Assembly (NCBI RefSeq): GCF_009696175.1
Contig: NZ_VUMM01000006.1
Coordinates: forward strand, 1-64,000
Direction: 5' to 3'
Length of the DNA stretch: 64,000 nucleotides
Source of the DNA: Floccifex porci
GTDB lineage: Bacteria; Bacillota_I; Bacilli_A; Erysipelotrichales; Erysipelotrichaceae
Shown here: positions 5,938 to 15,208 of the stretch, piece after piece
How the letters are laid out: each line of letters opens with the position of its first letter
How positions within the stretch are numbered: the first letter of the stretch is position 1
Program-made: the position numbers and the translations under genes
Notes under the pieces: model-generated
Database searches by the model: none
The model's input: only the letters and a program-made list of their open reading frames with translations
Told to the model about the DNA's origin: nothing

Positions 5938-5973
5938 ATTTTGTTCTAGTGAAAAAATTAATAGTAACAAAAC
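5938..5973 (-). repeat. Degenerate leader-distal CRISPR repeat
   Basis: 33 of 36 bases match the array repeat. Differences on the plus strand are the first G to A, AGCG to AGTG and ATGG to ATAG. A decayed last repeat at the end opposite the leader is typical of CRISPR arrays. The next canonical repeat begins 239 nt further on, so this copy is separated from the array by an ORF-bearing block rather than a normal spacer. Confidence 0.85.
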
Positions 5974-6005
5974 AGAAAATAATTTGATAAAATGAGATGA
6001 AATGT

Positions 6006-6182
6006 ATGGCAAAATATATAAAAATTAAAGGAAAAACGCCGAACGGTGGAGATTATTCAGAAATATATTTCTTTGATGATAAAGGGAATCCGATAGATCA
6101 AAAAAATGCTTCTCGTTGCGTTATTAGAGAATGCAAAGAAAACGGAGAATTATTAAAAGAAACATTCGCAACTTGCGAATAG
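6006..6182 (+). CDS. Small phage-like protein inside the CRISPR region
   Basis: 58 aa from MAKYIKIKG, or 61 aa from the upstream ATG at 5997. The sequence is a compact alpha/beta-type small protein (KTPNGGDYSEIYFFDDKGNP ... RCVIRECKENGELLKETF). It resembles small accessory ORFs of Firmicute phages, but no named family was recognised. It lies between a decayed repeat and the first canonical repeat, and reads toward the array, antisense to the crRNAs. The ribosome binding site is weak. It could be a captured phage gene, or less likely a resident gene left between array remnants. Confidence 0.5.
   Translation: MAKYIKIKGKTPNGGDYSEIYFFDDKGNPIDQKNASRCVIRECKENGELLKETFATCE
6164..6180. repeat. Perfect 17-nt palindrome at the end of the small ORF
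   Basis: ATTCGCAA and TTGCGAAT are inverted around a single C, covering the last codons of the ORF. No T-run follows, so it is not a standard terminator. Confidence 0.5.
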
Positions 6183-6212
6183 AAAGCACCGATTACGCAC
6201 AATATGCATATT

Positions 6213-7833
6213 GTTTTGTTCTAGCGAAAAAATTAATGGTAACAAAACCGTATCCGTTATCGAACTTGAAAATGTAATGTTTTGTTCTAGCGAAAAAATT
6301 AATGGTAACAAAACTTATTAAGCCTTTTATAATCGTAAGTATAAGTTTTGTTCTAGCGAAAAAATTAATGGTAACAAAACCACTTGGTGTAGTTCTTAGT
6401 TCTGGTTCTTGTTTTGTTCTAGCGAAAAAATTAATGGTAACAAAACATGTATTGTCAATCAATTCAGTTGGGAATAGTTTTGTTCTAGCGAAAAAATTAA
6501 TGGTAACAAAACTGAATAAAGTTGTATATGGAACAACAGTTTGTTTTGTTCTAGCGAAAAAATTAATGGTAACAAAACGGACAACAATTGTACTTGTCAC
6601 ACCAATAAGTTTTGTTCTAGCGAAAAAATTAATGGTAACAAAACCTATTCTAAGTGGTGTCATGGCTATTCTGCGTTTTGTTCTAGCGAAAAAATTAATG
6701 GTAACAAAACTCTTTCTGGATCTTCGTTATCAGGAACGAAGTTTTGTTCTAGCGAAAAAATTAATGGTAACAAAACTAGCAAATAATGATTTACCATTCT
6801 TCCTGGGTTTTGTTCTAGCGAAAAAATTAATGGTAACAAAACAGGGAATAGAAACTTCTGCGTGATTATTGAGTTTTGTTCTAGCGAAAAAATTAATGGT
6901 AACAAAACACGATTCTTCATCATAACTATAGTTATTACGTTTTGTTCTAGCGAAAAAATTAATGGTAACAAAACCTGTTTCATCGTCAAATGAGAATCCG
7001 TTTTGTTTTGTTCTAGCGAAAAAATTAATGGTAACAAAACCGTATCCGTTATCGAACTTGAAAATGTAATGTTTTGTTCTAGCGAAAAAATTAATGGTAA
7101 CAAAACAGATATTTAGACAGAACATTCATTGCATGAGTTTTGTTCTAGCGAAAAAATTAATGGTAACAAAACCATGGGAAGATATTCTATATACAACTTA
7201 TTGTTTTGTTCTAGCGAAAAAATTAATGGTAACAAAACGAGTGATGGTTGTATTTGTCCCTGGAAACCAGTTTTGTTCTAGCGAAAAAATTAATGGTAAC
7301 AAAACAAGCGTTTGCAGATGTATACTGTAATGGTAGTTTTGTTCTAGCGAAAAAATTAATGGTAACAAAACCATTCACATCCTGATAATATACTTGTTTG
7401 TGTTTTGTTCTAGCGAAAAAATTAATGGTAACAAAACTGACGAGTCTTGGAAGATTAAGACGAAACAGTTTTGTTCTAGCGAAAAAATTAATGGTAACAA
7501 AACGCTCAATGTTTTCATGGCCTGTTGTGGATTGTTTCGTTCTAGCGAAAAAATTAATGGTAACAAAACAGAATCGGTTATAACTTCCGTCACATACACG
7601 TTTTGTTCTAGCGAAAAAATTAATGGTAACAAAACGGCTGCCTTTTTTACAAGTCCTGATGAGAAGTTTTGTTCTAGCGAAAAAATTAATGGTAACAAAA
7701 CATACAAAAGCAGACTATTATCAAGATTCAAGTTTTGTTCTAGCGAAAAAATTAATGGTAACAAAACGATATATCACAGTCGGATACCAATTAATCGGTT
7801 TTGTTCTAGCGAAAAAATTAATGGTAACAAAAC
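6213..7833 (-). CRISPR. CRISPR array, leader-distal block: 25 repeats, 24 spacers
   Basis: The 36-nt repeat reads GTTTTGTTACC at its 5' end in crRNA sense (minus strand), with perfect 8-bp terminal inverted repeats (GTTTTGTT / AACAAAAC). Spacers are 30 nt except one of 31 nt (7239-7269). The repeat at 7534-7569 has one substitution, GTTTC for GTTTT. Direction is fixed by the tracrRNA anti-repeat and by the cas operon on the minus strand. The spacer at 6249-6278 is identical to that at 7041-7070. The spacer at 6579-6608 differs by two bases from one in the other block (8904-8933). The spacer at 7768-7797 shares 25 nt with the end of the adjacent 572-nt block. Confidence 0.98.
7773..7833 (-). 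repeat. 61-nt direct repeat, left copy
   Basis: It consists of the last 25 nt of spacer 7768-7797 plus the following CRISPR repeat. It recurs exactly at 8381-8441 on the other side of the 572-nt block. The five bases before the shared part differ at every position between copies (GATAT here, ATGCG there). Confidence 0.9.
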
Positions 7834-8043
7834 ACTGTCTGAAAGATTCGATTTGAAATGTATATGAACCGCTCCCGGTTGCATACCATACGATATAACG
7901 TCATTTGTCAATGCTTGGATTGACTGTATAAAATTCTGTACAAGAATCGAAACGCTGGAACATACAATGTCGTAACCTATCGGCGCATATCCTGCATGAC
8001 CATTGATTTCGATTTCTCGTTCTGTGATTGTGACTTGAATCAT
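7834..8043 (-). pseudogene. Truncated phage-type Prp-like cysteine protease gene
   Basis: 70 codons from ATG 8043 (GGAG 8 nt upstream) until the frame runs into the CRISPR repeat. It begins MIQVTITEREIEINGHAGYA and carries the Prp catalytic pair: H16 in NGHAGYA and C28 in DIVCSSVS, 12 residues apart as in the host Prp encoded at 36928-37242 (H21, C33). Prp proteins are about 105 aa, so roughly a third is missing. Phage copies are thought to process capsid or scaffold proteins. The reading frame continues into the repeat only by chance, so a functional product is unlikely. Confidence 0.78.
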
Positions 8044-8057
8044 GTATATCACTCCAT

Positions 8058-8092
8058 AAAAAAAAGCACCTAGCTAATTTGCGAAGTGCTTT
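8058..8092 (-). terminator. Terminator inside the 572-nt block, facing the pre-crRNA direction
   Basis: On the minus strand AAAGCACTT pairs with AGGTGCTTT (7 Watson-Crick pairs plus a wobble and an A-U), followed by further T to a run of eight. It starts right after the stop codon of the 85-aa ORF. Because the array is also transcribed on the minus strand, it should reduce readthrough from the leader into the 24 leader-distal spacers. Confidence 0.75.
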
Positions 8093-8350
8093 CTAATACC
8101 ACATAAGTACCTTTTCTTTTGGAAAATCATTATTTTCTACACATTCTTTTAAAGCTTTTATAGATTTTTTAAAGTATGACTTTAAATATGATTTCTCATC
8201 TAGTTCACAATATTTTTTTTCTATAACTTCTTTTTTTTCGATATTGTATACGATTTTTCCTATGTCTTTTTCATTTCCTTCCGGGAAATATTCGGCATAT
8301 ACTATATTATCTTTTTTTGTTACGTTTGTTAAGGTTACCATAGTACTCAT
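8093..8350 (-). CDS. Phage-like 85-aa protein inside the CRISPR array
   Basis: It starts MSTMVTLTNVTKKDN, with AAGGAGG 3-4 nt before ATG 8350 and a second in-frame ATG (MVTLTN) at a better distance. The product is lysine/glutamate-rich, mostly helical toward the C-terminus (KSYFKKSIKALKECVENN), and ends VLMWY. It has no signal peptide or membrane segment. The family was not recognised. It sits between the tail of another gene and a Prp-like gene, an arrangement suggesting a phage head or structural region. It is the only complete gene in the 572-nt block and has its own terminator. Whether it is expressed or contributes a function here is unknown. Confidence 0.62.
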   Translation of the reverse strand: MSTMVTLTNVTKKDNIVYAEYFPEGNEKDIGKIVYNIEKKEVIEKKYCELDEKSYLKSYFKKSIKALKECVENNDFPKEKVLMWY

Positions 8351-8373
8351 CTGCCTCCTTTTGATAATTGTGC

Positions 8374-8405
8374 TTATGCGATCACAGTCGGATACCAATT
8401 AATCG
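8374..8405 (-). pseudogene. C-terminal remnant of an unidentified phage gene
   Basis: Entering from the repeat, the frame reads INWYPTVIA then TAA, 23 nt before the start codon of the 85-aa ORF. Only the last ten codons are present. The adjacent ordinary spacer (7768-7797) encodes the same INWYPTVI and then diverges, so it derives from an allele of the same gene. Confidence 0.55.
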
Positions 8406-8441
8406 GTTTTGTTCTAGCGAAAAAATTAATGGTAACAAAAC
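8381..8441 (-). repeat. 61-nt direct repeat, right copy
   Basis: Identical to 7773-7833. It comprises the last 25 nt of the 572-nt block and the first repeat of the leader-proximal array block. Confidence 0.9.
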
Positions 8442-9365
8442 TGACAGCTTCATCTGCTGCTGACGCCATTTGTTTTGTTCTAGCGAAAAAATTAATGGTA
8501 ACAAAACATTTAATCATGTAAGTGTCTGTTGCGAACAGTTTTGTTCTAGCGAAAAAATTAATGGTAACAAAACTGGAAGAATGCAGTGAATTACAAAAGG
8601 CAAGTTTTGTTCTAGCGAAAAAATTAATGGTAACAAAACTAATATCAATGTGATAATTCTTAACACCATGTTTTGTTCTAGCGAAAAAATTAATGGTAAC
8701 AAAACTTGATGTTTCTATTACGTCAACATAAGTCGGTTTTGTTCTAGCGAAAAAATTAATGGTAACAAAACTCAGTTTAGACACGCTTGATGTATTCTTA
8801 TGTTTTGTTCTAGCGAAAAAATTAATGGTAACAAAACAATCATGGCAAAGGCTTATGCTTGGAAAAGGTTTTGTTCTAGCGAAAAAATTAATGGTAACAA
8901 AACGGACAACAATTATATTTGTCACACCAATAAGTTTTGTTCTAGCGAAAAAATTAATGGTAACAAAACGTAATGCTTATGGCAATTGTTACATTATTTG
9001 TTTTGTTCTAGCGAAAAAATTAATGGTAACAAAACACGCTTTAATCATGGTAATGTCCTCCTTTCGTTTTGTTCTAGCGAAAAAATTAATGGTAACAAAA
9101 CAGACTTCGATATCGACCTTCTATTGCACATGTTTTGTTCTAGCGAAAAAATTAATGGTAACAAAACCGTTATTTGGCAGCATTGCGATGTCCACTTGTT
9201 TTGTTCTAGCGAAAAAATTAATGGTAACAAAACTCATAATCGGATGCAGTGAACACACTGTAAGTTTTGTTCTAGCGAAAAAATTAATGGTAACAAAACA
9301 GCAGTTAAAAAATAAATATAAAACATCAGGTTTTGTTCTAGCGAAAAAATTAATGGTAACAAAAC
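8406..9365 (-). CRISPR. CRISPR array, leader-proximal block: 15 repeats, 14 spacers
   Basis: All 15 repeats are canonical and all 14 spacers are 30 nt, so the period is exactly 66. The right end abuts the leader next to csn2, making these the most recently acquired spacers. Spacer 8904-8933 is a two-base variant of 6579-6608. Spacer 9036-9065 read on the minus strand contains AAAGGAGG and an ATG, so it comes from a translation start region. No spacer matches the host genes in this window as far as can be judged by eye. Confidence 0.98.
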
Positions 9366-9413
9366 CTCAAATTCATATTACCATAAATTTAAGATTTTAT
9401 AAAATGTAGTTAT
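9366..9413 (-). promoter_or_regulatory. CRISPR leader (repeat-proximal part)
   Basis: The 48-nt A+T-rich gap between the csn2 stop and the first repeat ends, in crRNA sense, with ATTTGAG directly at the repeat. ATTTGAG is one of the conserved leader-anchoring motifs of type II-A leaders and directs Cas1-Cas2 integration. TATAAA-like elements lie upstream near the csn2 stop and could serve the pre-crRNA promoter, but no convincing -35 was found. Confidence 0.7.
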
Positions 9414-10286
9414 TTATAGAGAATGTTTATTTATGTCATTGATCAAATCTATTTTGTTTCCTTTATAAAAATGCTTTATGTATTTCATAATCTTATTATT
9501 TACCTCCTTTAAAGTAAGCAATTCACCATTGTTTTCACCAAAATATCCATACATCAAATCAAAATCAGCACAATCCAGAATTGTATCTTCCATCAGAACA
9601 ATATCTTTCAATTCATATTGTTCTTTCCAAATGGTATCGTTTATTAAAATAATAGAATTTTTTAAAGAATTTAATTCATTTATTATTTGTTTTGAAATTA
9701 TTTTTGAATCTACATATATAAAATATTTTTCAATTGAATGATCTTTTTCTTGAATGTATTCAATTATTTTTATTTGTTGAATAATTAATTCTTCTAATGA
9801 TAGATCGTATTCATCCATCTGTTCTTCTAATGCAAAGTATGGCTTTAATATTTTTAATAATATTTTTGATGAAAGAGAATCAAATTCCAATTTAAAAGAA
9901 TCTTCTTCGTTCAATTCTTCAATTAAAGATTGAAATAAAATATCAATTGTATTAATTGTGTCAAAATAAGAATAATCTTCTAATTTTCTTTCAAAATATT
10001 TAAGTAAAATAGATTTTGAACCTAATTTACATTCTTCATTTAAAGAAAACTTATCTGAAATTTCTATATAGAACGTAGACTTATTATTTAGTTCTTTTCC
10101 ATCTATTAATATTTTCGGTTTTAAATTATTTTCTATTCTATATTCACTTTTCACTGGATTAAAATACAATTTTATTAACTGTTTAATTTTGTGTTTTTCA
10201 ATACTATTATTTCCTAACAAGCATTTCCATTTATCAATCAAAAAATTATACATGACATTTCCATCCGTTATTGTAACCTTATTCAT
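9414..10286 (-). CDS. csn2: Csn2-type adaptation protein, long form
   Basis: 290 aa, encoded last in the cas operon and adjacent to the leader, the usual place of csn2 in type II-A loci. It is longer than the ~220-aa Csn2 of Streptococcus pyogenes and closer to the long Csn2 variants. The sequence is acidic and helical, with a central segment matching the Csn2 P-loop-like core only loosely (IYVDSKIISKQIINEL, IILINDTIW). Csn2 forms ring-shaped tetramers on DNA ends and works with Cas1, Cas2 and Cas9 in spacer acquisition. Its start overlaps the cas2 stop by ATGA. The assignment rests more on context than on motifs. Confidence 0.75.
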   Translation of the reverse strand: MNKVTITDGNVMYNFLIDKWKCLLGNNSIEKHKIKQLIKLYFNPVKSEYRIENNLKPKILIDGKELNNKSTFYIEISDKFSLNEECKLGSKSILLKYFERKLEDYSYFDTINTIDILFQSLIEELNEEDSFKLEFDSLSSKILLKILKPYFALEEQMDEYDLSLEELIIQQIKIIEYIQEKDHSIEKYFIYVDSKIISKQIINELNSLKNSIILINDTIWKEQYELKDIVLMEDTILDCADFDLMYGYFGENNGELLTLKEVNNKIMKYIKHFYKGNKIDLINDINKHSL

Positions 10287-10606
10287 ATTTTAATAAATGA
10301 CTCACTGCTCACAATTTCTTCCTGTTTTGATTTACCACCAAGAATTATTTCAATTTTTGAATATTGTTTTTCAGTAACAACCATTATACGAATTTGTCCT
10401 TTTGACGGAATATTCTTATGTAATATATTAATGTGCTTAATTGCAGCATCTCGATTCGCAAATATTTTACAATACACAGAATACTGCATCATTAAATATC
10501 CATTTTGAATCAGATATTTTCTGAATCTAGCATAATTTCTTCTATCTTCTTTTGTTTTAACGGGTAAATCAAAAAATAAAACTAAACGCATAAAATCATA
10601 TGTCAT
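10283..10606 (-). CDS. cas2: CRISPR-associated Cas2
   Basis: 107 aa. It begins MTYDFMRLVLFFDLP, aligning with the type II-A Cas2 N-terminus, with the conserved Asp at position 13. The ferredoxin-like fold is followed by GQIRIMVVTEKQYSKIEIILGG, typical of II-A Cas2. It bridges two Cas1 dimers in the integrase complex. The start overlaps the end of cas1 by 11 nt and the stop overlaps csn2, so cas1-cas2-csn2 is one translationally coupled unit. The full-length start was kept because MTYDF matches family members. Confidence 0.95.
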   Translation of the reverse strand: MTYDFMRLVLFFDLPVKTKEDRRNYARFRKYLIQNGYLMMQYSVYCKIFANRDAAIKHINILHKNIPSKGQIRIMVVTEKQYSKIEIILGGKSKQEEIVSSESFIKI

Positions 10607-11495
10607 TTGGAAATAATACAGGATCTGGAAATATCACAAATTCTTCCTCTTCATTTAAATATTTAAATATTGAATCTAAATAAATATTTATCGCATTCGC
10701 TATTGTCTGTTTTCGACCATCAATTTTAACTTTATAATTTGTAAGATTGATTAAATCTTCTCTATGTTGTTGTTTAAATAATATTTCATCCATTAGATGA
10801 TTATAAACATAATTATCTACAATCGGTCTGAATACTTCAATTATGTCATCACTTAAATTAAACATATTCGTCTTTCCTTTATGAAAAATTCCTAAATTAG
10901 CAAGATATCCTTTTGCCACTATAATGGAAGTAATTAAAGATCGAAATATACTATATCCATAATTTAATCCTGCATTTATTACGTCTTCTTCAAAACGAAT
11001 AAAATCATTGCCAAACAGTGCTCTAAAATACATCTTTGCAGCCAATCCTTCCCGATTGGTACAATCACCTAATTGAACTTCATCCACAAACTGATATAAT
11101 TTCTGACATACTTCAAAACTTCTATTATTTTCTTTTAATATTTCAATTTGGTTTAATATTTTATGCTTAACAATCAGTGCATGTAATTCTTCTTTTTTGT
11201 ATGGATTCCACTCTATTTGTTTTTCAATATTACCACTGGAAGAAAAATGTCCATTCATAGGTAATACATAACTTTTAGGAAGATGATCCACACCACATAA
11301 AATTGTACAAACATTATTTTCGGTTAGTTTATTAATTAAAGGAACACTTAAATGAGATTTATAATTATCAATGACTAAAATTTGAATATCTGCAATTGGA
11401 AATAATATTTCATTCTCTTTTATTTCAACTTTTAGATTATCTAAATACAATCGCAAATATTCACATCTCTCTACATAAATAACTCTATGACCCAT
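10596..11495 (-). CDS. cas1: CRISPR-associated Cas1 integrase
   Basis: 299 aa, type II family length. The metal-binding catalytic residues are visible as E149 (NREGLAAKMYF), H205 (LGIFHKGK) and E220 (SDDIIEVFRP). The N-terminal beta domain begins MGHRVIYVERCEYL. Together with Cas2 it integrates protospacers at the leader end. No Shine-Dalgarno sequence lies before ATG 11495, and the tracrRNA terminator ends only a few bases upstream. Expression may depend on readthrough, a weak promoter, or initiation near the start codon. Confidence 0.97.
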   Translation of the reverse strand: MGHRVIYVERCEYLRLYLDNLKVEIKENEILFPIADIQILVIDNYKSHLSVPLINKLTENNVCTILCGVDHLPKSYVLPMNGHFSSSGNIEKQIEWNPYKKEELHALIVKHKILNQIEILKENNRSFEVCQKLYQFVDEVQLGDCTNREGLAAKMYFRALFGNDFIRFEEDVINAGLNYGYSIFRSLITSIIVAKGYLANLGIFHKGKTNMFNLSDDIIEVFRPIVDNYVYNHLMDEILFKQQHREDLINLTNYKVKIDGRKQTIANAINIYLDSIFKYLNEEEEFVIFPDPVLFPNDI

Positions 11496-11502
11496 AAATG
11501 AT

Positions 11503-11526
11503 AAAAAGAAAAGACCCTTTCGGGCC
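11503..11526 (-). terminator. tracrRNA terminator
   Basis: The hairpin GGCCCGAAAGGGTC with a GAAA tetraloop is followed by a T-rich run on the minus strand. It forms the last stem-loop of the tracrRNA. Confidence 0.88.
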
Positions 11527-11585
11527 GAGTTCGGGATAAACCCTTGTTTTGTTAGGTCATATAATTTTTTCGCTAGAATATAACC
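11505..11585 (-). ncRNA. tracrRNA
   Basis: On the minus strand the RNA contains TTCTAGCGAAAAAATTA and AACAAAAC, complementary to the two ends of the crRNA-sense repeat, with a mismatched bulge between. Next comes AAGGGTTTATCCC, a short nexus-like hairpin, then a GAAA-loop terminator. The predicted length is about 80 nt, compact like other small Cas9 systems. Its position between cas9 and cas1 matches Streptococcus thermophilus CRISPR1. It fixes the direction of the array as minus strand. Confidence 0.9.
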
Positions 11586-11591
11586 ACTATT

Positions 11592-11620
11592 ATTATAGCC
11601 TATTCAAATTCTAATTTCAA
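11592..11620 (-). promoter_or_regulatory. tracrRNA promoter
   Basis: TTGAAA (11615-11620) and TATAAT (11592-11597) are separated by 17 nt on the minus strand. The -35 lies inside the 3' coding end of cas9. The predicted start near 11585 leaves the full anti-repeat in the transcript. Confidence 0.78.
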
Positions 11621-11948
11621 TTTATTTTCTTTAACCTCATATACATTTCCAAGTACATCTGTGGAATATTTTTTAAATCCTAATTCCGTTCGAACAGCTA
11701 TAGTACGACGTTTTTTATTTTTTTTATAGGTAGGACTAACTTCTATTGTAAATGACTTATCGTTATACATGCCAACAAACCTTAAAATTTCAAAATTAAT
11801 TCCATCATGATACAAAACTACTCCATTATCGTCTGTAGAAGAATCATAGAAATATGGTTGTCCTTTCTTTCTCTTGACTCCAATAAGTTCGTCACTATGT
11901 AATGAAAACAAAAATTTCGAATCTGTTGATATTAGTCTCTTTTTTTTT
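11600..11948 (-). pseudogene. cas9: cas9 3' part: out-of-frame PAM-interacting domain
   Basis: About 115 codons that continue the Cas9 homology in the +1 frame after the A9 run at 11940-11948. They begin RLISTDSKFLFSLHSDELIG, aligning to the SaCas9 region after its KKLKKI, and end KKYSTDVLGNVYEVK, almost identical to the SaCas9 C-terminus (KKYSTDILGNLYEVK). This is the PAM-interacting domain. No ribosome binding site would start it separately. With eight A instead of nine the two parts join into a ~1116-aa protein. Confidence 0.88.
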
Positions 11949-14900
11949 CTGATTATCATACCATTTTCTATCAATAACATATTTTTTTGAACATTTTTCA
12001 TAGTGAATATCGTTATATCTTATATTAATAAATCTATAAAATCCATCTGGACATAAATATAAATCTACTCTATAGCATTTTAACTGTTTTAAAGCGACTT
12101 TATGACATAAATCTGAGGCTGGGTACTTATGAGAAATATCAATATATTCATATACAGAATTACCATAGTATTTGAGTTCCTTTATTTCAGGGCCATTTCC
12201 TTTCTTTGAATATTTGTGGATCGTTCCAAATTCTTTTTTATAACGAGATAAGGGATTCTCCCCAACTAATTTGTATTTTGTAATACCTTTCTTTGTTTCT
12301 TTTTTATAATGCTCTTTGGAATCTTTAAACATTTCAAAATCATGCATGACAATGTCTTCTAAAATTTTATATGTTTGTGGATCGTTATCTTTCATTAATA
12401 ATGTACTTTCATTATTGATAATACCTTCAATCATTACAGAAACTTTATTCCCTGTTGTATCTTTAGGAGCATATATATCATATTTTCCAATTAATTTATC
12501 TTCATCTCCCTTTTTTCTTATACTATAAATAGTTTCATCCGCAATTTGTCTGTTTGGTTTTGTATCCACCTTATGAGAAATCTTAATTGGAGGATAATAT
12601 AGACTGTCTCTTGAAATCTGACCTTTATAGTATCGGTTGCTGTCTAAATAGATATTTTTTAATTGTGCAATAAATGCAATATAAAGAGGATCCATGTAGG
12701 CTTTATCATCTGGTATCGTTTTTATTTCTCCTGTTAATTCATCATAAAAATTATCAAATGTATATTTACTCAAATACCCATTTAATAAATTCATTTTCTT
12801 AACCGAAGCAACAATCAAGCCATCAATCGCATGATGTAAAAAATCCTCATCACGTTCTTTTTCTAGTTGAATCTGTGTTCTAAATTTATCTGTGATCTTT
12901 CCATTTAAAGTATGGACTTTAGTATCAATTTCATTGTCTTTAAAATAATCTGATAATGTATTTAATACCGTCCTACATGCATAGCTTGTATCAATCAGAT
13001 TTCGATTAATAAATTCCTGAATGTTATCAAATTTTGTAATGTCTTTATCATATAGCAAATTTACTTTTTTCTTATAATTTAATTTTTTATTGCTTCCTAC
13101 GATTATTCTATATTGGTTCCAGGAACATCCCATTCCATCAAATTTTCCTGATTGATAAGCCATAAATGGTGTCAGATTTCCCTTTAACTGATTTTCCATT
13201 CTTGTGATCAATACTTTGTTAGACTGTGAATCATCCAGTGAAATCGAAATAGGAATGATATGATCAATTTCAGTATAATCTCTATCTTTAATTAATAAGT
13301 CTAAATCAATTGTCTGGAAAGTGTATGCGCTTTTTCCATCTTGTTCCAAATACAATCGGATCTTCGCTTTTGTCTTTCCATTGATTTTATCTGGATCCAA
13401 GCCTCGATCTTTTAATAACTGATCCACTTCTTTATTTCGATTTTCAAAATATTTCTGACGATTATTGATTCTTTTTTTACGTTCTGCACTATTTTTATCT
13501 CTTGTCATTTCTACGACAATTGAATCAAATTCACCATATTTCTTTCTTAACGCATTTACTACCTTAAATGTTTCATTCTGTGCTCTTTTGACAACTGGAG
13601 AAAGAATCGCTGTATCATCCGCAACAATGTTTTTCTTTCCTTTATGAGATATTCTTGCTTTATCAAATAATTTTAACTGGTGAAGAACCTGAATCTGATT
13701 TAATGAAGTCTTATACAATTCCTCGTTTAATAAACGAATAGCTTTTAAAGATAAAGAATGATATCCAGTAAATTTTGTATTGGTTACTAAATGATCGACA
13801 ACTTTTTCATCCACTTCCAATGCCAGTAATTTATCTTTTCTTTCTTCCATTCCTTTATAGTTTGTTAAAACTTCAGATATAGAATCTAATAATTCATAGT
13901 CATTTAAAGAAATATCAATATTTTCTTTTTCAAATGCTTTTTTTAATTCTGTATATCCTTTAAATTCGGTTAATAGATGCTTCTTATTTTTATCAATGCG
14001 GAAACCAGAAATTTTATCTTCATCTGCTCCAACAATTTTTGATAATTGTTTAGGAGTAATTTTTTTATTTTTACTGACATAAGAAAAAATTTCCTGTTTT
14101 TGAGATACATCTAATTTTTCATCATCAATTGACAAATTATTTAAATCGTTCAATAAATTGAATATTTCCGCACTCACTGACATTTTAGGAGCTCTAAATT
14201 CATTTGGAAAAACACTGCATTTTCCTCTCATTCGTTCAATTAAATCTTCATAAACAATTTGTCCATTTTCATCATAAAACCATCTTCCATATGGTGTAGG
14301 AGACTTTTCACTTCCAGGCCCTTCATAATAAGCTCTTTTTCGTGAAATAATTTCAATGATTTTATCACAAACATCTTCATCCAATTCCTGATTTGATAAA
14401 ATCTGTCTGGCTTCTTTTATATAATCTTCTGTTCTAAAATTATTCGCATGTCCTCTTATTTTATTATTGTCATTTAAACGATCCAGTTGAATTTCACAGA
14501 TGTATTTTCCTTCTTTTAATAATTTTGCATTCTCACTTAATATTTCTTTTGTACTTAAACTATCAGGTGATGTATCTTCCATTTCATCCACCGTTTCAAT
14601 TGAGCTTCCTCTATGCTTTGTAAGATGCAGGATCACAGATACCAATTCATCATTCGTTAATGGATTTGTTAAACCTTTCACTCGTAATTCATAAACATCT
14701 GATTGTGGCTGGTAATTATCACTCATCAATCCATTTTCTTTTAATAATTTCTGCATATCGCCAATTCGATTTGCTTTACGACGAGTCAGTCTTCGTCTGC
14801 CTCTGGCATTTCTTCGTTTTTCATTATCTGCAGCTGTACCTTCTTTAAACAGACGAACTCCATAATCTACAAATTCATTGTTCTCTACATCAATGATTCC

Positions 14901-14951
14901 ATATCCTACTGATGTGATTCCAATATCTAATCCTAATACTAGCTTTGCCAT
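11895..14951 (-). CDS. cas9: Cas9 endonuclease (SaCas9-like), frameshifted near the C-terminus
   Basis: Type II effector nuclease, guided by crRNA:tracrRNA. Start MAKLVLGLDIG at 14951 has AGGA 8 nt upstream; ATG 14957 is an alternative. RuvC-I D9, Arg-rich bridge helix (~43-70), RuvC-II E481, HNH D563-H564 with N587, and RuvC-III H706/H707 and D710 are all present, so both nuclease sites look intact. Similarity to Staphylococcus aureus Cas9 is strong throughout. After residue 1001 a run of nine A shifts the frame; 17 unrelated residues follow and the PAM-interacting domain is lost. A sequencing error, a real mutation, phase variation or transcriptional slippage are all possible. Confidence 0.93.
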   Translation of the reverse strand: MAKLVLGLDIGITSVGYGIIDVENNEFVDYGVRLFKEGTAADNEKRRNARGRRRLTRRKANRIGDMQKLLKENGLMSDNYQPQSDVYELRVKGLTNPLTNDELVSVILHLTKHRGSSIETVDEMEDTSPDSLSTKEILSENAKLLKEGKYICEIQLDRLNDNNKIRGHANNFRTEDYIKEARQILSNQELDEDVCDKIIEIISRKRAYYEGPGSEKSPTPYGRWFYDENGQIVYEDLIERMRGKCSVFPNEFRAPKMSVSAEIFNLLNDLNNLSIDDEKLDVSQKQEIFSYVSKNKKITPKQLSKIVGADEDKISGFRIDKNKKHLLTEFKGYTELKKAFEKENIDISLNDYELLDSISEVLTNYKGMEERKDKLLALEVDEKVVDHLVTNTKFTGYHSLSLKAIRLLNEELYKTSLNQIQVLHQLKLFDKARISHKGKKNIVADDTAILSPVVKRAQNETFKVVNALRKKYGEFDSIVVEMTRDKNSAERKKRINNRQKYFENRNKEVDQLLKDRGLDPDKINGKTKAKIRLYLEQDGKSAYTFQTIDLDLLIKDRDYTEIDHIIPISISLDDSQSNKVLITRMENQLKGNLTPFMAYQSGKFDGMGCSWNQYRIIVGSNKKLNYKKKVNLLYDKDITKFDNIQEFINRNLIDTSYACRTVLNTLSDYFKDNEIDTKVHTLNGKITDKFRTQIQLEKERDEDFLHHAIDGLIVASVKKMNLLNGYLSKYTFDNFYDELTGEIKTIPDDKAYMDPLYIAFIAQLKNIYLDSNRYYKGQISRDSLYYPPIKISHKVDTKPNRQIADETIYSIRKKGDEDKLIGKYDIYAPKDTTGNKVSVMIEGIINNESTLLMKDNDPQTYKILEDIVMHDFEMFKDSKEHYKKETKKGITKYKLVGENPLSRYKKEFGTIHKYSKKGNGPEIKELKYYGNSVYEYIDISHKYPASDLCHKVALKQLKCYRVDLYLCPDGFYRFINIRYNDIHYEKCSKKYVIDRKWYDNQKKKETNINRFEIFVFIT

Positions 14952-15208
14952 TTTCATATTCCTTTCTTTAAAATTATTATTATCCTCTTTCATGACACTA
15001 TTTTTGTCAGAATTATATATTTAACATTATACATCATAAAAATTAAAAAATAATTATAGTGAAACAAATACCTTCTTTTATGTTAAAAAAAGAATGGCTT
15101 TACTCGATGTTTAAATTTCTTTTATGTTTTCCTTTGAAAATATTTGATTAACATTTTAAGAATTGAAGCAACTTAAATTTATCTTTAATAACTTTTTTCT
15201 AATACTAA

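Follow-up and report, generated by a model that had tools for sequence, protein, structure and literature searches.

CRISPR arrays normally store virus-derived snippets of about 30 nt, and during their acquisition the second strand transfer normally falls at the repeat-spacer junction, 36 bp from the first. Several errors of this reaction have been described. In repeat mutants of the Streptococcus thermophilus type II-A system, improper second-site attack inside a spacer leads in vivo to partial spacer duplication (Kim et al. 2019, PMC6895254). Over-long prespacer mimics presented to Streptococcus pyogenes Cas1-Cas2 are joined at the leader-repeat junction and are inhibited at the repeat-spacer junction, in a ruler-like manner (PMC8390005). 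The supercomplex containing HNH-dead Cas9 integrates unprocessed spacers and gives rise to more ectopic events (PMC8034620).

The window analysed here, i.e., the whole stretch of 64,000 nt of Floccifex porci DNA, contains a CRISPR array with a 572-nt block between two of its repeats. In our opinion, the block is best explained as a natural variant of the known Cas1-Cas2 reaction that left a clean footprint, and it appears to combine the published types of error: an untrimmed fragment, an exact first site, and a wrong second site. The locus is like the full-site type II-A integration systems of S. thermophilus and S. pyogenes in its cas9-cas1-cas2-csn2 genes, 36-bp repeat, 30-bp spacers, TTTGAG leader end, and an exact join at the leader-facing edge of the repeat, but the insert is 547 bp instead of 30 bp and the duplication is 61 bp instead of 36 bp. 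In the partial spacer duplication of Kim et al., the second transfer likewise occurred inside the first spacer, part of which was duplicated. That case, however, concerned repeat mutants, a site 8 bp past the repeat, and normal prespacers, whereas the present one is natural, involves a perfect repeat and a site 25 bp past it, and carries a giant fragment. The HNH-dead Cas9 supercomplex also joined an untrimmed prespacer into an array, albeit in vitro and at oligonucleotide length (PMC8034620).

Mobile-element insertions into CRISPR arrays share with this locus the foreign DNA and the flanking direct duplication; unlike them, the block lacks a transposase and terminal inverted repeats, as the original prediction had correctly noted, and consists of phage DNA in which the outermost gene on either side is truncated. 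A transposon, IS, or other mobile-element reading was rejected because no transposase, recombinase, or inverted repeats were seen. It should be noted that no natural precedent for unusually long spacers was found in the literature searched, although such an absence is weak evidence.

The type II-A locus and the direction of its array

The features of the locus are collected in Table 1. The locus is assigned to type II-A because cas9, cas1, cas2, and csn2 are present, all on the minus strand; the operon order cas9-cas1-cas2-csn2, a tracrRNA anti-repeat, and a leader ending in GAG at the first repeat were all found. On the minus strand, the right-hand repeat border lies between ...GAATTTGAG and GTTTTG. 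The TTTGAG-type end corresponds to the leader-anchoring sequence as described previously (PMC7999890), and on the side facing csn2, each of the 18 related arrays from the same order is bordered by TTTGAG as well. This places the leader on the right-hand side and makes the minus strand the reading direction of the array, in agreement with the tracrRNA and the cas gene order; the degenerate left-hand repeat marks the trailer. Followed from the leader, the array comprises 14 newer spacers, a repeat, the block, another repeat, spacer S, 23 older spacers, a 239-nt interval, and the degenerate repeat.

Table 1 Features of the CRISPR-Cas locus and of the captured DNA (positions in the window)
Feature	Position	Strand	Remarks
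Degenerate trailer-end repeat	5938..5973	-	3 mismatches
P2, 239 nt, phage gene (ORF 5997-6182 +)	5974..6212	+	55% to phage MT835521, E 4e-15
CRISPR array	6213..9365	-	40 perfect or near-perfect 36-nt repeats; 38 spacers of 30-31 nt plus the 572-nt block
Spacer S, complete, 30 nt	7768..7797	-	leader-proximal spacer when P1 arrived
61-bp duplication, copy 1	7773..7833		25 nt of S (7773-7797) plus repeat (7798-7833); identical to 8381-8441
P1, captured phage DNA (block core), 547 nt	7834..8380	-	between the two 61-bp direct repeat copies; head-gene content
Truncated Prp cysteine protease gene	7834..8043	-	70 of ~95-100 codons; PF04327 E 1.4e-14; phrog_4478
Intrinsic terminator	8057..8094	-	hairpin, then U run; same direction as pre-crRNA transcription
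ORF85, complete 85-aa phage protein	8093..8350	-	no function assigned; homologues directly after minor-head gene
Minor-head gene end (Phage_Mu_F / SPP1 gp7-like)	8307..8378	-	last 23 codons plus stop, HKHNYQKEADEYYGNLNKRNKKR*; overlaps ORF85
61-bp duplication, copy 2	8381..8441		25-nt partial copy of S (8381-8405) plus repeat (8406-8441)
Leader	9366..9413	-	ends ...ATTTGAG at first repeat
csn2	9414..10286	-	PADLOC Csn2 E 1e-98
cas2	10283..10606	-	PF09827, TIGR01573
cas1 (type II)	10596..11495	-	TIGR03639 E 8e-82
tracrRNA candidate	11500..11597	-	anti-repeat, stem, terminator; pairs along most of repeat
cas9	11600..14993	-	frameshifted near 11931-11939

The cas9 gene is broken in the assembly at an A9 run (11931-11939), with the PAM-interacting C-terminal residues, which match SaCas9 974-1045, found in another frame; the RuvC and HNH motifs look intact by eye. 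The frameshift may reflect an error of sequencing, or else PAM recognition may really have been lost, perhaps by phase variation; an uninterrupted cas9 frame matters for function, but the assignment to type II-A does not depend on it. Because 14 normal spacers were added after P1, the frameshift is not invoked as the cause of its capture.

Several other spacers of the array merit a remark. Those at 6579-6608 and 8904-8933 represent one protospacer from two phage variants, the two changes being synonymous in one open frame (YWCDKYNCC), while those at 6249-6278 and 7041-7070 are identical and lie 12 units apart. The spacer at 7438-7467 is 90-96% identical to sequences that lie between genes in several gut phages unrelated to one another, among them crAss-like phages, where it probably matches a tRNA gene, and the spacer at 7504 matches a conserved tape-measure motif; no PAM could be derived from either of these two matches.

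A 61-bp duplication around phage head-gene DNA

The interval of 572 nt (7834-8405) given in the original prediction is indeed present and is bounded on either side by a perfect 36-nt repeat, but it is not one giant spacer, as had been proposed there. The block consists of 25 nt copied from the older neighbour spacer S and of 547 nt of phage DNA: in the array direction, it opens with the 25 nt CGATTAATTGGTATCCGACTGTGAT, with which S begins as well. With the adjoining repeat, these 25 nt form an exact 61-bp direct repeat, the identity of which ends at both borders; just past the shared 25 nt, five of five bases differ. Duplication of a whole repeat-spacer unit would be expected to span 66 bp, not 61 bp, and a canonical spacer would measure 30-31 nt, not 572 nt, and be accompanied by a repeat-only duplication of 36 bp. 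When the insert and one 61-bp copy are removed in silico, a normal array of repeat, S, repeat, and next spacer results. The insert is joined precisely to the leader-facing edge of the repeat and the duplication begins at the leader-repeat junction, as would be expected of an aberrant Cas1-Cas2 product. The array orientation, the partial duplication of S, and the second oversized interval considered below were absent from the original prediction, whose description of the block itself stands.

The minor-head frame, when read across the 25 nt, gives RLIGIRL followed by an in-frame stop (TGA), and the minor-head frame starts right after the junction, the 25 nt being located upstream of HKHNYQKEAD. 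Because of this in-frame stop within the minor-head gene, the 25 nt are not phage sequence. Moreover, no frame of the 25 nt resembles the conserved upstream residues of the homologues (EAHRxAxxKY); the junction is therefore at 8380/8381 or within about three bases of it. A frameshift introduced into the 25 nt by sequencing error would not account for this, as homology is restored in no frame. No exact match to the 25-mer was found in IMG/VR.

On one strand, the 547 nt carry the last codons of a minor-head gene, ORF85, the terminator, and the start of a Prp gene, arranged as in phage head cassettes. The minor-head end is comparable to the C-terminus of the protein encoded in IMG/VR contig L082, RKYDYQREAADYYGNIEKYNKNKS*, the gene of which is Phage_Mu_F, and a profile of phage C-termini matches only the frame of HKHNYQKEADEYYGNLNKRNKKR* among the six (E 2.6e-5). 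The overlap of this sequence with the start of ORF85 mirrors the minor-head C-terminus in several ORF85-bearing phages. Homologues of ORF85 are found directly 3′ of the minor-head gene in 7 of 80 IMG/VR contigs (L104, L105, L120, L122, L092, L071, and L082), and one also follows the minor-head gene in Staphylococcus phage vB_SpsX-DS5. The Prp homologues recovered from IMG/VR by a search with a Prp alignment are up to 59% identical and sit between the minor-head gene (Phage_Mu_F) and the genes for scaffold and major capsid. In contig L074, the place immediately between minor head and Prp is taken by an ORF with a weaker resemblance to ORF85. The order in independent phage contigs is thus minor head, ORF85, Prp, scaffold, and major capsid. 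The captured Prp sequence ends at CAGACAGT, flush with the repeat.

Most of the gene content predicted for the block was confirmed. The 85-aa ORF is complete and preceded by a ribosome binding site (AGGAGG), the terminator is more stable than all of 200 shuffled sequences (dG -16.7 kcal/mol; z -4.0), and the Prp-like gene, of which a 70-aa N-terminus with a Pfam Peptidase_Prp match is left, is cut exactly at the repeat. The predicted gene tail is real as far as the minor-head C-terminus is concerned, its remainder being the 25-nt copy of S. A phage origin is upheld by protein homology and gene order, not by nucleotide identity: the nucleotide match in phages that the original prediction had proposed to look for was not found. 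Single-protein peptide searches of IMG/VR with Prp and ORF85 returned no matches, and neither did degenerate codon patterns derived from the peptides INWYPTVIA (the presumed gene tail) and YITVGYQLI (spacer S).

A spacer acquired later than P1 (8838-8867) encodes, on the plus strand, SWQRLMLGK, which matches the phage minor-head protein (SWQRLMIGK in L082). The gene matched by this spacer is the minor-head gene, the tail of which sits in the block.

Proposed integration event and its alternatives

We consider it likely that the block arose in one aberrant type II-A adaptation event, in which an untrimmed phage fragment was integrated with its second strand transfer misplaced. A 547-bp fragment from the head-gene region of an infecting phage would have been used as a prespacer without trimming to 30 bp. 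The first strand transfer by Cas1-Cas2 would have hit the leader-repeat junction exactly, and the second would have landed 25 bp past its normal place, within the then-first spacer S. Gap filling would then have left a 61-bp copy (the repeat and 25 nt of S) on either side of the fragment, and 14 spacers of normal size would later have been added on the leader side. Since the orientation is set by the TTTGAG leader end, the flush end of P1 corresponds to the leader-side, first transfer; that Cas1-Cas2 performed both transfers, and that the fragment entered as linear untrimmed DNA, is what we infer. Integration of an untrimmed prespacer by Cas1-Cas2, as put forward in the original prediction, is therefore the best-supported option, with the correction that the fragment measures 547 nt and not 572 nt, the other 25 nt being duplicated spacer.

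The simplest course would be integration at the leader, after which the 14 further spacers were added, but the fragment could also have been integrated ectopically within the array. A GAG end favours ectopic integration events (PMC7999890); the newer neighbour spacer ends in GCTGTCA in the array direction, unlike a GAG end. The 14 normal-length spacers that followed P1 indicate that the machinery was not permanently defective.

That the array harbours another oversized insert of phage DNA counts in favour of the aberrant adaptation event. Against it count the single genome assembly that provides the sole instance, the array's other spacers, which (the P2 interval aside) are only 30-31 nt, and a fragment length of ~550 bp, far beyond those tested in the cited studies. 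In addition, the misplaced site in the mutants of Kim et al. (PMC6895254) was 8 bp past the repeat and at a guanine, whereas here it is 25 bp past and the attacked base is most likely not a guanine, the junction being ambiguous over S22-S25.

The same 61-bp duplication would be expected if Cas1-Cas2 had made only a half-site join, at the leader-repeat junction, and replication, template switching, or end joining had linked the remaining end to an array copy nicked or broken 25 nt into S. Consistent with such a course, the leader-side junction alone lies at the canonical Cas1 site, and long prespacers favour leader-side half-sites in vitro (PMC8390005). It requires, however, that the array was additionally broken or the template switched, no Ku gene was found in the genome, and full-site misplacement is sufficient alone and has an in vivo precedent (PMC6895254); we regard half-site joining with repair as unlikely. 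An assembly or amplification chimera of phage and array sequence appears more doubtful still. The genome is a draft of 44 contigs, and the homopolymer frameshift in cas9 indicates that its sequence may contain errors, but neither junction has any sequence common to both sides, as a misassembly would need. The phage frame, moreover, indicates a phage without the 25 nt beside its minor-head end, the repeat is not expected in phage DNA, both junctions fall on meaningful borders, and a second, different phage insert is present in the same array. The block is real and probably a genuine part of the genome.

It is also conceivable that the 572 nt are one contiguous phage fragment, integrated canonically, and that S owes its identity with the 25 nt to an origin at the corresponding site of a related phage. 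Such double sampling does occur in this array, as the spacers at 6579 and 8904 represent a single protospacer of two phage variants, with two changes between them. Nevertheless, this account is extremely improbable, given the stop in the minor-head frame within the 25 nt, the abrupt break of identity at which five of five bases differ, and a shared end that is PAM-distal and fixed by no PAM; an exact 25-nt search of IMG/VR for the contiguous CGATTAATTGGTATCCGACTGTGATCGCATAAGC, which it expects in a phage, gave no match. Hardly credible, finally, is homologous recombination of phage DNA with two spacers from the same phage, with replacement of the repeats between them, as the original prediction had also suggested. 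Repeats do recombine readily, but recombination by itself does not produce a 61-bp duplication and would need homologies of 25-30 bp on both sides, and the 25 nt, with their in-frame stop, lie outside the phage locus. A repeated 30-nt spacer would be predicted beside the block, and yet no spacer equal to 7834-7863 was found elsewhere in the array.

A second oversized interval and the consequences of capture

The ORF of the second oversized interval, P2, is intact, with 58-61 aa, and is 55-64% identical to its counterparts in six IMG/VR contigs. In the two contigs checked (L138 and L140), the P2 homologue lies directly 3′ of the Phage_Mu_F gene, i.e., in the same slot as ORF85. No spacer duplication was seen at P2, where the trailer repeat has decayed. 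Because there is no DNA similarity between P1 and P2, they were not copied from each other. Two captures from one gene slot of different phages may reflect chance (~1-2%, a rough estimate) or a hot spot. It is very unlikely, in our estimation, that the adaptation module or a spot in the phage genome repeatedly gives gene-sized captures, so that the array would be an occasional gene-capture device and captured head genes or the terminator would be useful to the host, e.g., by hampering the assembly of phages or by silencing old spacers.

A search of the same order with the PADLOC Csn2 model yielded 22 relatives, and in the 18 related arrays compared, none of 275 intervals is oversized, all being 28-31 nt, as against 2 of 40 here; a separate Csn2 scan of genome contigs gave no matches. 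No sister array was found, since the repeat of the present array is absent from 272 related genomes.

As for consequences, the captured terminator faces the pre-crRNA and would likely lower both transcription of, and crRNA production from, the 24 spacers older than the block. The Prp sequence at the 3′ end of the insert could still serve as a guide if transcribed. ORF85 is in the sense direction of the pre-crRNA and has its AGGAGG, so that it could be translatable.

If the proposed event is true, the block is a natural record of two integration safeguards, the trimming to 30 bp and the ruler for the second transfer, failing together. Its footprint, a 61-bp duplication that is exact on the leader side and wrong on the spacer side, is what the two-step model derived in vitro would predict for an over-long prespacer. 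This suggests that Cas1-Cas2 can act in cells as a transposase-like integrase of gene-sized DNA. Duplication of a repeat and a partial spacer around an oversized interval would also provide a searchable signature, by which the frequency of such events could be assessed across genomes.
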